Source of the DNA: Acidobacteriaceae bacterium
GTDB taxonomy: Bacteria; Acidobacteriota; Terriglobia; Terriglobales; Acidobacteriaceae
DNA: 34,075 bases
Assembly (NCBI GenBank): GCA_003165005.1
Contig: PLSB01000065.1
Coordinates: forward strand, 158 to 34,232
Direction of reading: 5' to 3'
In this document: positions 18,041-33,142 of the stretch, piece by piece
Position numbering within the stretch: the stretch's first letter is position 1
How the letters are laid out: the number at the start of each line of letters is the position of its first letter
Translations under genes and position numbers: made by a program
Notes under the pieces: generated by a model
Told to the model about the DNA's origin: nothing
Database searches by the model: none
The model's input: only the letters and a program-made list of their open reading frames with translations

Positions 18041-18179
18041 ATAAGCTGAGTATTAGGTCCTTATCGATCCGGCCCTCAAGAATAGGACTTGGGTGCCCCA
18101 TCCTTTCCGCGTTCTTTGCTTTGCGGAAAGGGTGGGAATGCACGGTCTCACGCAATCGGGCCGGATCAATAAGCTGAGT
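18041..18179. repeat. MITE-like element with nested inverted repeats, flanked by 11-bp direct repeats
   Basis: ataagctgagt occurs at 18041-18051 and again at 18169-18179. Between and overlapping them, 18060-18075 and 18158-18173 form a 16-bp inverted repeat with one mismatch. Inside that, 18097-18110 (cccatcctttccgc) pairs with 18123-18136 with one G-T wobble. The element has no coding capacity and sits between divergent mltG and ruvX; its right end touches the ruvX ribosome-binding site. Confidence 0.75.
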
Positions 18180-18194
18180 TTGAGGAAGGGCATT

Positions 18195-18650
18195 GTGCCA
18201 TCCGGAAGGCCATCTCGCTATCTTGGCCTCGACATCGGCAACCGCCGCATCGGCGTAGCCGTGTCGGACGAGCTGGGCCTGACGGCGCAGCCGGTGCTGA
18301 CGCTCGAGCGGCGCACGAGCCGCCGAGAGGACCTGCGCTCACTGGCGCGGCTCTGCCGGCGCTTCGGCGCAGTGGGCATCGTGGTGGGTAACCCGTTGCA
18401 TCTCTCGGGCGAGGCGAGCCCGCAAGCTGCCAAAAACAAAGCGTTTGCGGCTGAACTGGGCGAGCTGACCGGCCTGCCCATTCACCTGTGGGATGAGCGC
18501 CTGACCAGCCACGAGGCCCACCAGATCCTCTACCAAGCCGGCCACGCGCGGCAGACGCACAGCAAAGTCGTCGACCAGGTGGCGGCAACGCTGATCTTGC
18601 AGTCGTTTCTTGAAAACAGGGACGTGGGGACTAGGGAAATAGGGACGTAG
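18195..18650 (+). CDS. ruvX: RuvX/YqgF putative pre-16S rRNA nuclease
   Basis: 151 residues from the GTG at 18195, preceded by GAGGAAGGG. RNase H-like fold motifs are present: 'YLGLDIGNRRIGVAVSD', 'VVGNPLHLSGEASPQA', 'WDERLTSHEAHQIL' and 'KVVDQVAATLILQSFLE', with the expected acidic residues in the first, third and fourth. YqgF proteins process the 5' end of 16S rRNA. The natural C-terminus seems to end near 'QSFLEN'; the last about ten residues (RDVGTREIGT) are encoded by the left inverted repeat of the cassette at 18616-19096, and so is the stop codon. This gives an added tail but should not break the fold. Confidence 0.92.
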   Translation: MPSGRPSRYLGLDIGNRRIGVAVSDELGLTAQPVLTLERRTSRREDLRSLARLCRRFGAVGIVVGNPLHLSGEASPQAAKNKAFAAELGELTGLPIHLWDERLTSHEAHQILYQAGHARQTHSKVVDQVAATLILQSFLENRDVGTREIGT

Positions 18651-19096
18651 GGAACTGAGGGGGGATCCGATGAGCAAGTCTTTTAAAGACCTCGAGGCGT
18701 GGCAGCGGGCAATTGAGTTGACGGTTGCTGTTTACCAGCTAACCTCTTCGTTCCCGCCGTCCGAGCAGTTTGGCCTGATCAACCAGCTCCGCAGAGCGTC
18801 CGTCTCGGTGGCAAGCAATATCGCGGAAGGATATGGACGCTCTACAAGAGGTGAGTACGTACAATTCCTCGGAAACGCGCGCGGGTCGAACTCGGAAGTT
18901 GAAACTCAACTCGTGATCGCCAAGGCACTCGGGTTCGGCTCGAAGGAAAGAATTGAGCTTGCGGAAGGATTGTGCAGCGAAACCGGCCGCATTTTAAACG
19001 CAATGATTCGATCCTTGCGGAATACCAGCTAGGGCATCTCGGTTCAACCGCACGGCAGGGCCCCGAGCCCTACGTCCCTAGTCCCTACGTCCCTGT
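18616..19096. repeat. IVS-like cassette: four-helix-bundle gene bounded by long inverted repeats
   Basis: Left arm 18616-18652 and right arm 19068-19096 are inverted copies (left begins acagggacgtggggactagg). They match at 28 of 29 positions, apart from 8 extra bases (aaataggg) in the left arm. The arms are built from TCCCT-type 7-8-nt units. The only gene inside is the four-helix-bundle gene at 18670-19032. The left arm overlaps the end of ruvX, and a TATAAT lies two bases beyond the right arm. Confidence 0.85.
18670..19032 (+). CDS. Four-helix-bundle protein, 23S rRNA IVP/S23 family
   Basis: 120 residues, complete. 'FKDLEAWQRAIELTVAVYQLTSSFPPSEQFGLINQLRRASVSVASNIAEGYGR' followed by 'GEYVQFLGNARGSNSEVETQLVIAKALGF' is the standard signature of the four-helix-bundle proteins (TIGR02436, PF05635 group). 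They were first seen encoded in intervening sequences of 23S rRNA and are related to the accessory Avd proteins of diversity-generating retroelements. The function is not established; a nucleic-acid-binding role is inferred from Avd. Start ATG 18670, with GGGGGGA upstream. The gene is enclosed by the inverted repeats described separately. Adjacent genes (ruvX, greA) are not rRNA. Confidence 0.93.
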   Translation: MSKSFKDLEAWQRAIELTVAVYQLTSSFPPSEQFGLINQLRRASVSVASNIAEGYGRSTRGEYVQFLGNARGSNSEVETQLVIAKALGFGSKERIELAEGLCSETGRILNAMIRSLRNTS

Positions 19097-19098
19097 CT

Positions 19099-19104
19099 TA
19101 TAAT
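19099..19104 (+). promoter_or_regulatory. Possible -10 hexamer for greA
   Basis: A perfect TATAAT starts two bases after the right inverted repeat and about 64 bases before the greA start. The bases 17 nt upstream (within the repeat) do not resemble TTGACA, so this is a weak call. Confidence 0.3.
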
Positions 19105-19167: not shown

Positions 19168-19677
19168 ATGCCCGAGCACATCAAGAAGAAACTTGAGGAC
19201 GAGATCAAGCAGCTCGAGTTCGAGCTGACCTCCGAACTCCCGGCCGAGATCAAGAAGGCCCGGGCCATGGGCGATCTCTCGGAGAACGCCGAGTATCACA
19301 TGGCCAAGCAGCGGCAGGAGTTCGTCAACGCCCGCCTGGGCCAACTCAAGAAGCGCATGGGAGAGCTTTCGCTGGTTAATCTCGCCAACATTCCCCGCGA
19401 TAAAGCCGGATTCGGGTCCACGGTGGTCGTCTACGACGTGACCAAGGACGAAGAGATTGAGTATCGCCTCGTAACCAGCGAGGAATCCGACGTCACCAAG
19501 GGCCTGATCTCCACCACTTCGCCCATCGGCCGCGGGATTGTGGGCAAAAGGGTGGGCGACACGGCCACCATCGTGACGCCCAATGGCAAGCGCCAACTGG
19601 AAATTCTGAAGCTGACGACGATCCACGACGAAGCCACCGCGGAAGCGGGCGAAGCTGCGGCCGGCGCAGCGCAGTAG
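19168..19677 (+). CDS. greA: Transcription elongation factor GreA
   Basis: 169 residues. The N-terminal coiled coil (about residues 1-75) carries the tip motif 'GDLSENAEYH' with D36 and E39, corresponding to the acidic residues that place the second Mg2+ in the RNA polymerase active site. The C-terminal FKBP-like domain ends 'SPIGRGIVGKRVGDTATIVTPNGKRQLEIL'. GreA stimulates transcript cleavage in backtracked complexes. A short Ala/Glu-rich tail (about residues 156-169) goes beyond the usual end. Downstream is a heptamer repeat and then a lipid synthase gene. Confidence 0.96.
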   Translation: MPEHIKKKLEDEIKQLEFELTSELPAEIKKARAMGDLSENAEYHMAKQRQEFVNARLGQLKKRMGELSLVNLANIPRDKAGFGSTVVVYDVTKDEEIEYRLVTSEESDVTKGLISTTSPIGRGIVGKRVGDTATIVTPNGKRQLEILKLTTIHDEATAEAGEAAAGAAQ

Positions 19678-19693
19678 CATCGAGAGCGGCTGC

Positions 19694-19785
19694 CAGCTTC
19701 TAGCCACTGGCTCCAGCTCCTTTGCGCATCAAACGTGATGAATTAGGAAAAGGCTAGAAGCTGGAAGCTAGGAGCTAGTAGCTTA
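19694..19785. repeat. Pair of inverted heptamer arrays (YAGCTNN type) between greA and the lipid synthase gene
   Basis: 19694-19720 reads cagcttc, tagccac, tggctcc, agctcc. 19752-19785 contains the reverse-complement arrangement, with a perfect 12-bp inverted match (19694-19705 to 19752-19763). The units keep a 7-nt period. The array ends directly at the start codon of the CDP-alcohol phosphatidyltransferase gene at 19787. Confidence 0.75.
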
Positions 19786-19786
19786 A

Positions 19787-20413
19787 ATGACCTGGACAAG
19801 TGCTTTTGGCCGTGCCTGCGGATGGTTGCTGGACCGCATCGTGCATGGATTGGCGCTCACTCGCATCTCACCCAACGTCCTCACCTTCCTCGGGCTGGTG
19901 ATCAACATCGCCGCCGCGTTCCTGTTCGGCCACGCCAACGCCGCCAACGGCGACCGCATGTTTTTCCTGGCAGGCGTGGTGATCTTCGGCGCCGGCATCT
20001 TCGATATGGTCGACGGCCGCGTCGCCCGCCGCATCAACAAGGTCACGGTCTTCGGCTCGTTCTTCGATTCCGTCATCGACCGCTACTCCGACGTGGTGCT
20101 CTTCTTCGGTTTGCTGGTCTACTACGGCCGCATCAATCGTTTCCGCTATGTGGTGCTGGTGGCCTTCGTCATGATCACTTCGCTCATGGTCAGCTACACG
20201 CGCGCCCGCGCCGAGGCGCTCATCGGCCAGTGCAAGGTGGGCTTCATGGAGCGGCCGGAGCGCATCGTGCTCATCCTGCTGGGCGCGATCTTCAACCACT
20301 GGGGCGTAATGGCTCCGGTGCTGTGGATTCTGGCCGTGCTTTCCACCATCACCGTCGCGCACCGCATTGTCTACACCTACCAGAACACCAAGCATCTGGC
20401 GCCGCTGAGCTGA
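19787..20413 (+). CDS. CDP-alcohol phosphatidyltransferase
   Basis: 208 residues with about six membrane segments. The family signature D-x2-DG-x2-AR-x8-G-x3-D-x3-D is complete at D73, D76, G77, A80, R81, G90, D94, D98. These Asp residues bind the metal ions that transfer a phosphatidyl group from CDP-diacylglycerol to an alcohol in the inner membrane. 'GFMERPERIVLILLGAIF' after the core is also seen in phosphatidylinositol-phosphate-synthase-like and archaetidyl-type members, so the acceptor alcohol may be inositol phosphate or glycerol phosphate; sequence does not settle it. Heptamer arrays in opposite orientation lie just before the start and just after the stop. Confidence 0.9.
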   Translation: MTWTSAFGRACGWLLDRIVHGLALTRISPNVLTFLGLVINIAAAFLFGHANAANGDRMFFLAGVVIFGAGIFDMVDGRVARRINKVTVFGSFFDSVIDRYSDVVLFFGLLVYYGRINRFRYVVLVAFVMITSLMVSYTRARAEALIGQCKVGFMERPERIVLILLGAIFNHWGVMAPVLWILAVLSTITVAHRIVYTYQNTKHLAPLS

Positions 20414-20426
20414 GAAAAGCAGCTTT

Positions 20427-20454
20427 TAGCTATTAGCTCTTAGCTTCTAGCTCG
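20427..20454. repeat. Heptamer array, four exact TAGCTNN units
   Basis: tagctat, tagctct, tagcttc and tagctcg follow in register just after the lipid synthase stop. The reverse complement of 19752-19785 matches this array closely (about 24 of 28 positions), so the gene at 19787-20413 is bracketed by inverted arrays. Confidence 0.8.
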
Positions 20455-23109: not shown

Positions 23110-23240
23110 AGACGAGTGGTTAGTGTGTGTGTGAGTGTGGTCGTATCTTCGCGGCGCACTCACACACTCGCACTCACACTCCTTGCTAGTTCCTACTCTC
23201 CGGTCCCTGATCCCTGTTCCCTGTTCCCTGTTCTTCCGTG
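23110..23240. repeat. GTGTGTG/CACACAC inverted region and TCCCTGT heptamer array
   Basis: A GT-rich stretch (about 23120-23140) and an AC-rich stretch (about 23157-23179) form an imperfect inverted repeat downstream of msrA. At 23204-23231 there are four units: tccctga, tccctgt, tccctgt, tccctgt. This array lies inside the 3' end of the minus-strand membrane-protein gene. Confidence 0.75.
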
Positions 23241-33025: not shown

Positions 33026-33059
33026 CATTCAAGAAGAATGCACCGGCGCGAAAACAGGC

Positions 33060-33142
33060 GCGCCGGAGGCGCAGTGTTTTTTAGCCCAGCGCTTAAGCGC
33101 TGGGAAAGGAATCACCAAAACACTCCTGAGTCCCGTAGGGAC
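33060..33142. repeat. Palindromic element downstream of the DUF3857 array
   Basis: gcgccggaggcgc (33060-33072), outer arms agtgtttt (33073-33080) and aaaacact (33117-33124) around a perfect 20-bp palindrome (33085-33104), then gtcccgtagggac (33130-33142). Nothing codes here. The rest of 33143-33322 holds only the upstream region of the MerR gene. Confidence 0.75.

Follow-up and report, generated by a model that had tools for sequence, protein, structure and literature searches.

The 34,075-nt stretch of Acidobacteriaceae DNA analysed here (the window) carries, between ruvX and greA, an S23 gene enclosed by inverted arrays of 7–8-nt units. It is probably a member of a widespread class of mobile-type cassettes, in which the S23 protein would bind its own array. 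The layout and the dispersal of these arrays suggest a so far undescribed class of selfish DNA. Our best reading of the arrangement is a REP–RAYT-like layout without a transposase, in which a ring of S23 reads one unit per subunit.

The element between ruvX and greA

The element and its immediate neighbours are as follows.

18093..18650, + strand: ruvX, upstream neighbour; longest open reading frame, with its C terminus written by the left arm
18616..18652, + strand: left arm, tandem TAGGGAC-type units; the AG strand reads inward; codes for the last residues and stop of ruvX
18670..19032, + strand: S23/IVP four-helix-bundle gene, 120 amino acids; PF05635, TIGR02436
19068..19096, + strand: right arm, reverse complement of the left array; CCCTACGTCCCTAGTCCCTACGTCCCTGT
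19099..19104, + strand: TATAAT, likely −10 of greA, 2 nt past the right arm; read by eye
19168..19677, + strand: greA, downstream neighbour; open reading frame and family match

The S23 open reading frame matches Pfam PF05635 (E = 7.4e-36) and NCBIfam TIGR02436 (E = 1.4e-34), and profile searches identify the upstream neighbour as RuvX (PF03652, E = 4.6e-41) and the downstream neighbour as GreA. All three genes lie on the + strand, with S23 between the other two. An initial annotation of this DNA had described inverted arms that agree at 28 of 29 positions apart from an 8-nt insertion, and we obtained the same figures: by eye, 28 of 29 positions match once 8 nt (AAATAGGG) are removed from the left arm. 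An inverted-repeat scan places the arms at 18613–18644 and 19068–19099. The arm score of the element is 20, and 0 of 240 control positions in S23 loci scored above 13 in a narrower scan. The proposal that ruvX ends within the left arm also holds: the longest ruvX reading frame stops at 18650, within the arm, which therefore codes for the final residues and stop codon.

Absent from the initial annotation were the composition of the arms, which are tandem heptamer arrays, and the position of the right arm, which stops 2 nt short of the TATAAT at 19099–19104. We take this motif to be a promoter element upstream of greA; by eye, TATAAT also lies near the arms in several relatives.

The cassette encodes only S23, with no recognisable nuclease or transposase. 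Its protein has no match to PF01797 (Y1/RAYT) at E = 0.001 and a weak match to Pfam bAvd (1.8e-5, under the cut-off), and we found no PADLOC match that would indicate a defence role. At Rfam gathering scores the window contains no rRNA. Elsewhere in the window, an Acido-Lenti-1 RNA (RF01687) lies on the minus strand at 33059–33104 (48.1 bits, over the gathering score). The element sits in sense after ruvX and is probably read by run-through transcription. Among the best 80 of at least 585 matches in named records, the nearest relatives of the window S23 are mostly from Acidobacteriaceae; among the S23 loci that we collected, the nearest relatives (74%) lie between gcvH and gcvPA in two genomes (G021 and G019) and have AGGGACT-type arms.

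Arms of S23 genes and the junctions that they occupy

The source genome (3.9 Mb in 327 contigs, 75% complete) has eight PF05635 matches, one of which (L034) has an in-frame stop. All eight lie between inverted, short-unit tandem arms, a further point absent from the initial annotation, and the unit is different for each: TAGGGAC type (window), GAGTGT, TAGCTAT, CAGTGAT, TAGCGGAGT, TAGTGGT, CAGGGAA and CAAGTTGG-like. The weakest arms of the eight (L038) score 12.

We collected S23 loci from named genomes (the best 80 of at least 585), from 149 Acidobacteriota genomes, from the same genus and from plasmids. The family is present in 75 of the 149 Acidobacteriota genomes and in 47 of 59 genomes of the genus; 36 plasmid records carry S23, 30 of them cyanobacterial, and eight plasmid regions were read. 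The 227 S23 genes reduce to 216 distinct ones, and to 212 after four at contig edges were dropped. Inverted arms scoring at least 13 flank 172 of the 212 genes, compared with 9 of the 635 control positions taken within those loci, and arms scoring at least 20 flank 111 of 212, compared with 0 of 635. In an earlier scan over a narrower span, a score of at least 15 was reached by 70 of 117 genes and 0 of 240 controls. Forty of the 212 genes fall under the arm threshold; many of these show arrays by eye. The 80 named loci span Planctomycetota, Bacteroidota, Firmicutes, Fibrobacter, Patescibacteria, Gemmatimonadota and Deltaproteobacteria, and in the narrower scan at least one locus of each group has arms above the control maximum of 13. 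Five of the eight plasmid regions score 22–29; two of the five are near-identical and come from different plasmids of the same strain. The remaining three score 8–10.

Some S23 loci have unusual surroundings. For example, an element with TTAGCTT-type arms on a Pseudanabaena galeata plasmid (L220, NZ_CP112875.1) is flanked by cas6 and cas4 in a type I-D CRISPR operon. Five other loci (L193 (G092:C223), L194 (G118:C7), L195, L196 and L197) hold two to four S23 genes per contig, approximately 2–4 kb apart, on one strand and mostly with unlike arm units.

Among the 168 of 212 elements with an arm score of at least 14, the best arm period is 7 nt in 124 and 8 nt in 34, whereas shuffled arms give a flat distribution. 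Of 130 upstream arrays, 98 conserve an AG at fixed phase, compared with 51 in a column-permuted null, and 87 of 136 downstream arrays conserve a CT. The arms lie close to the gene (median distance between arms, 423.5 nt), and in several elements the right arm codes for the last residues and stop codon of S23 itself.

The arm unit is tied to the protein that it encloses. We compared pairs of S23 genes for which no flanking gene in common was detected (up to 1,200 nt on each side, compared in six frames; short flanks can hide sharing). The arm unit is common to 11 of 11 pairs at 80% or more protein identity, 79 of 104 pairs at 70–80%, 110 of 422 at 60–70% and 1–3% of sampled pairs below 60%; these pairs are non-independent and many come from one genus, and we place weight on the gradient rather than on a p-value. 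One of the 11 closest pairs is within the source genome (L033 and L036, 80% identical, with units CAGTGAT and TAGTGGT). An unsystematic look turned up no genome in which two unrelated sites carry near-identical cassettes, and two Calothrix plasmid S23 copies have flanking genes in common.

This gradient bears on the possibility that S23 genes drop into hairpins that arise independently, as intervening sequences do at the tips of rRNA helices, so that the arms belong to the target. A gene falling into existing hairpins should leave related S23 genes in unrelated arms, and the opposite is seen. Target-derived arms were rejected on this ground, as the unit goes with the S23 protein from site to site. 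In favour of this explanation, relatives do have gene-free hairpins at the same junctions, S23 genes are fewer than arrays, and three S23-free genomes of the genus are rich in arrays (see below); given the strain that the pair comparison already puts on it, we consider it very unlikely.

The same junction can be compared across genomes. Of the best 30 genomes with ruvX, the window included, 18 have loci that hold both ruvX and greA. A script classed these as one S23 element (that of the window), six with inverted arms and no S23, four with one-sided arrays and seven with none. The classes are rough, and two of the six inverted-arm calls are doubtful; L058, classed as having inverted arms, has no visible array, and for L040 the script arms differ from the heptamer arrays seen by eye. 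In this last locus (from G017) the heptamer arms enclose, at the site of the window S23, a different open reading frame, which from its sequence we presume to be shikimate-kinase-like. The initial annotation had proposed comparing the ruvX–greA gap in relatives; empty, one-sided and gene-free hairpin states are all found.

A second panel covers 35 gcvH–gcvPA loci, comprising the best 30 and five picked by hand, among them the source genome and G019, the latter known to hold S23. These include four S23 cassettes, 19 gene-free inverted hairpins, five one-sided arrays, five loci with none and two empty junctions. The gene-free hairpins have units of the TAGCTTC, CAGTGATC and CAGAGAT types, and of the GTGATTC type in the source genome. 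Hairpins of different families thus occur at a single junction. All four S23 cassettes there are of the AGGGACT type, whereas most gene-free hairpins at the junction carry other units, which again argues against arms that belong to the target. The empty junctions (L359 and L381) have 9 and 3 nt from stop to start; their genomes are diverged, and no target duplication was read. A locus without S23 (L371) has flanks and unit type in common with one that has it (L387); by eye, L371 carries short arms of about two units, and the script class for it is ‘no array found’. In another comparison by eye, two loci (L384 and L368) appear to have loops homologous to those of two others (L385 and L389), and both arms have switched together from the TAGCTTC to the CAGCTTT type. 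To the eye this is a concerted change of both arms.

Gene-free arrays and the genomes that carry them

Arrays without S23 occur throughout the source genome, including in the window.

19751..19784, + strand: TAGCTNN-type array, no S23, directly downstream of greA; array scan
20421..20453, + strand: TAGCTNN-type inverted partner array; the pair with 19751..19784 encloses the open reading frame 19787–20413
23197..23236, + strand: solo array, CCCTGTT type (complement of the CAGGGAA type), no S23; array scan

The enclosed open reading frame (19787–20413) is presumably CDP-alcohol phosphatidyltransferase-like, judging by eye from its sequence. A further TAGCTNN copy is visible by eye near 19692–19720, and the array at 19751–19784 may be the right half of a hairpin that follows greA.

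A 238-kb sample of the source genome (20 contigs taken by number, and the window) has 41 arrays of 6–10-nt units, compared with one in a shuffle, and several of these are short-loop hairpins without S23. The pattern TAGGGACTAGGGA has 92 matches in the genome (42 + 50) at no more than one mismatch; matches overlap within arrays, so there are fewer sites, and the reversed control gave 141 matches (78 + 63), more than the pattern, the reversed pattern being itself an array unit. Across our samples, the AG strand reads inward in 30 gene-free hairpins and outward in 4, with 19 unclear (53 hairpins, a few double-counted because of overlap between the arrays of a hairpin).

The solo arrays are similar to S23 arms from their own genomes. 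Of 93 arrays more than 1,500 nt from any S23 gene, 24 match arms of the same genome at a score of at least 14, whereas arms of other genomes lead one to expect 3.3; this matching omits six of the sampled genomes, which had no arm data. The mean match is 11.1 to same-genome arms and 6.7 to other-genome arms, a looser exclusion of 400 nt gives 25 of 94, and the matches include odd 6- and 9-nt units. Gene-free copies therefore have ends in common with gene-bearing copies, in the same genome or at the same site, a MITE-like relation.

Array abundance also follows S23 across genomes. In 20-kb samples outside S23 loci, 20 S23-rich Acidobacteriota genomes have 56 arrays in 375 kb and 20 S23-free genomes have 0 in 356 kb; the contigs of the S23-rich samples were partly known from S23 matches, four of the 20 samples hold S23, and the count omits arrays up to 400 nt from it. 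Counting three array patterns in whole genomes (148 besides the source), we found at least five matches in 35 of 74 S23-positive and 1 of 74 S23-free Acidobacteriota genomes (p = 7e-12), with the five-match cut set after the counts had been seen. At least one match to the three patterns occurs in 21, 34 and 40 of the 74 S23-positive genomes, compared with 2, 11 and 15 of the 74 S23-free genomes. The third pattern was a reversed control, GGTGANNGGTGANNGGTGA, found to be an array unit itself and common in other S23-bearing genomes (91 matches in G121 and 73 in G162). The remaining 39 of 74 S23-bearing genomes have fewer than five matches for all three unit types counted. Within the 13 families that contain both kinds of genome, arrays reach five matches in 20 of 33 S23-positive and 1 of 36 S23-free genomes.

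The genus of the source genome gives a mixed picture. There is no difference in 20-kb samples (five arrays in 160 kb from eight S23-bearing genomes; five in 176 kb from 12 S23-free genomes). In whole genomes, an AGGGA pattern has 35–268 matches in the eight S23-bearing genomes and 0, 0, 0, 0, 1, 2, 3, 5, 7, 40, 71 and 72 in the 12 S23-free genomes (median, 2.5; p = 1e-4); this pattern and one of those used for the 148 genomes read alike when reversed, in their fixed letters, and have no useful reversed control. The three array-rich S23-free genomes (G011, G034 and G222, with 40, 71 and 72 matches) are 96, 93 and 80% complete. Outside these, one genome (G094) has five array matches and no S23 found. 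A search with PF05635 found no gene in the 12 S23-free genomes or in G094; no S23-positive genome was among those searched, but the same search finds the family in the source genome. Recent loss of S23, missing contigs or independence of the arrays from S23 could explain the arrays in the three genomes.

These counts bear directly on the suggestion, made in the initial annotation, that the element is a mobile cassette, against which arms occurring everywhere without the gene had been held to count. Taken literally, arms without the gene are everywhere, yet the mobile reading survives because gene-free arrays are mainly in S23-bearing genomes, as non-autonomous copies would be. The three S23-free genomes of the genus, however, are rich in arrays as well. 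Support for mobility is indirect: the arm unit travels with the gene across sites, and relatives have empty or otherwise filled sites.

The arrays might instead be REP-like elements moved by Y1/RAYT (PF01797), with S23 as a hitchhiker. Their layout and dispersal are indeed REP–RAYT-like, and PF01797 has eight matches in the source genome and is present in 94 of the 149 genomes. The distribution of arrays argues otherwise: at the five-match cut they occur in 0 of 38 genomes that have PF01797 without S23, and in 5 of 19 that have S23 without PF01797. We rejected RAYT as the mover of the arrays, as they track S23 and not PF01797, and regard this explanation as extremely improbable.

Possible mode of action and related systems

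S23 elements have a strong orientation bias. Of the 182 with both flanking genes within 600 nt (12 others are ‘far’ and the rest lack two flanks), 132 lie between co-directional genes, 111 in sense and 21 in antisense; 36 are between convergent and 14 between divergent genes. The elements touch the stop codons and start regions of their neighbours. This sense bias fits either an RNA step or a need for run-through transcription.

Such placement could also mean that the array hairpins are binding or processing sites on mRNA and that S23 is an RNA-binding regulator of array-bearing transcripts, on the model of TRAP and CsrA, making the arrays a regulon rather than mobile DNA. The window transcript folds with the arms as its outer stem (z = −3.9), and the repeats of Geobacter metallireducens have been called predicted regulator sites (PMC2700814). 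Mismatches between arms tell against selection on an RNA stem: across the 168 elements there is no significant excess of G–U over A–C (247 versus 214, p = 0.14), and in the 58 best-matched (at least 90%) the counts are 32 and 37, although register noise in tandem arrays could dilute a signal. RNA-stem selection on the arms accordingly finds no support in these counts. The hairpin unit at one junction also changes between genomes and is absent from some, unlike a conserved regulon. We consider an RNA regulon unlikely. The self-folding RNA proposed in the initial annotation fares similarly, in that the capacity to fold and the sense placement agree with it and the mismatch counts do not. The arms may be kept alike by copying or conversion at the DNA level.

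Arms of 7-nt units have a mode of five (102 of 245 at one setting, with the mode unchanged at all three settings), and 8-nt arms are broader, with a mode of 4–5. Consecutive AGs at the exact period number five in 48, four in 26 and six in 13 of 162 upstream arms; for consecutive CTs in downstream arms the counts are also 48, 26 and 13, of 159. Five units are present in 56 of 168 solo arrays. The only S23 matches in the PDB are 2gsc (XCC0516) and 2rld, with five chains listed for each, and XCC0516 is described as a toroidal homopentamer (PMC4990558). This correlation suggests one unit per S23 subunit.

Plain slippage could produce simple tandem repeats of varying copy number, and the arrays might then be microsatellites that flank S23 by coincidence. 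Slippage would not be expected to give inversion around a gene, fixed polarity, units shared within a genome, a five-unit mode or a tie to S23. For the set as a whole the inversion, the S23 tie and the same-genome unit matches already contradict it, and we find this explanation scarcely tenable.

We hypothesize that the mobile-type cassette works as follows. The array unit mostly carries AG at a fixed place in the strand that reads inward, and a pentameric S23 ring may bind its own array, one AG unit per subunit, as RNA or single-stranded DNA. Binding would let the cassette, and gene-free hairpins as its non-autonomous copies, spread, most often between co-directional genes. Cutting and copying would be left to host replication, repair or another enzyme, because the cassette has no recognisable nuclease or transposase. 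The S23 protein has no known catalytic function, which counts against the mobile reading.

A bolder proposal is possible, and we lean against it at present. The S23/IVP family could be the partner of dispersed DNA hairpins, with a pentamer that reads exactly five AG-headed heptamers and each paralogue reading its own unit; it could spread its array without a transposase by loading onto the arm while transcription or replication leaves it single-stranded; and the heptamers of cyanobacteria and the S23 genes in 23S rRNA could be two faces of one element. If true, this would provide a function for a large orphan family and a partner for the heptamer repeats of many genomes, and repeat dispersal could be aided by a small ring-shaped binding protein without a nuclease.

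Among the titles and opening lines of abstracts listed for openly licensed papers (CC0, CC-BY and CC-BY-SA), we found no S23/IVP genes joined to heptamer arrays. We find the class of repeat-plus-S23 elements undescribed in the literature searched, with parts of it, the Geobacter and Nostoc repeats, already in print. Avd partners a reverse transcriptase, whereas the S23 cassette holds S23 alone. The fold of Avd and bAvd, from diversity-generating retroelements, is reported as homologous to S23 (PMC10053308). Geobacter metallireducens has 3–5 tandem hepta- or octanucleotides, several classes of which are paired on opposite strands, in alignments of 16 to 48 sequences (PMC2700814). In contrast to the S23 cassettes, these paired repeats are annotated as ‘predicted global regulator binding sites’, and the passages of that paper drawn on here state no link to S23 (PMC2700814).

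The intervening sequence (IVS) of Coxiella is 428 nt, with an open reading frame that has complementary ends and encodes S23p (PMC4990558). The likeness to 23S rRNA IVSs (for example, in Coxiella and Leptospira) noted in the initial annotation stands for the layout, with complementary ends that form a terminal stem, for the protein family and for the size, about 430 nt. It fails for the location, as the window element lies outside rRNA, with ruvX and greA as neighbours; unlike IVSs, these elements also have tandem-array arms and gene-free hairpins dispersed genome-wide. Excision from RNA by RNase III is a further characteristic of IVSs. The window element is not a 23S rRNA intervening sequence. 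Cyanobacterial STRRs are heptamers, and some cyanobacterial plasmid S23 genes lie in arms of this kind (five of the eight regions by score). The heptanucleotide repeats of the Nostoc trnL-intron P6b, which base-pair into a hairpin and vary by indels of other sequence, are, unlike those of the S23 cassettes, not linked to S23 in the relevant passages of PMC3488679.

In layout the element resembles REP–RAYT units (REPtrons) of REP-associated tyrosine transposases, in which a single gene always lies between two inverted copies of a repeat that is dispersed in the genome (PMC2817692). The S23 gene similarly lies between inverted copies of a dispersed repeat, the repeat is commonest in gene-bearing genomes and gene-free copies abound. 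The differences are that S23 is not a transposase, that the repeat is tied to S23 and not to PF01797 and that, in place of the GTAG-headed palindromes of REP–RAYT, the arms are arrays of about five 7–8-nt units, otherwise free in sequence and varying between elements.
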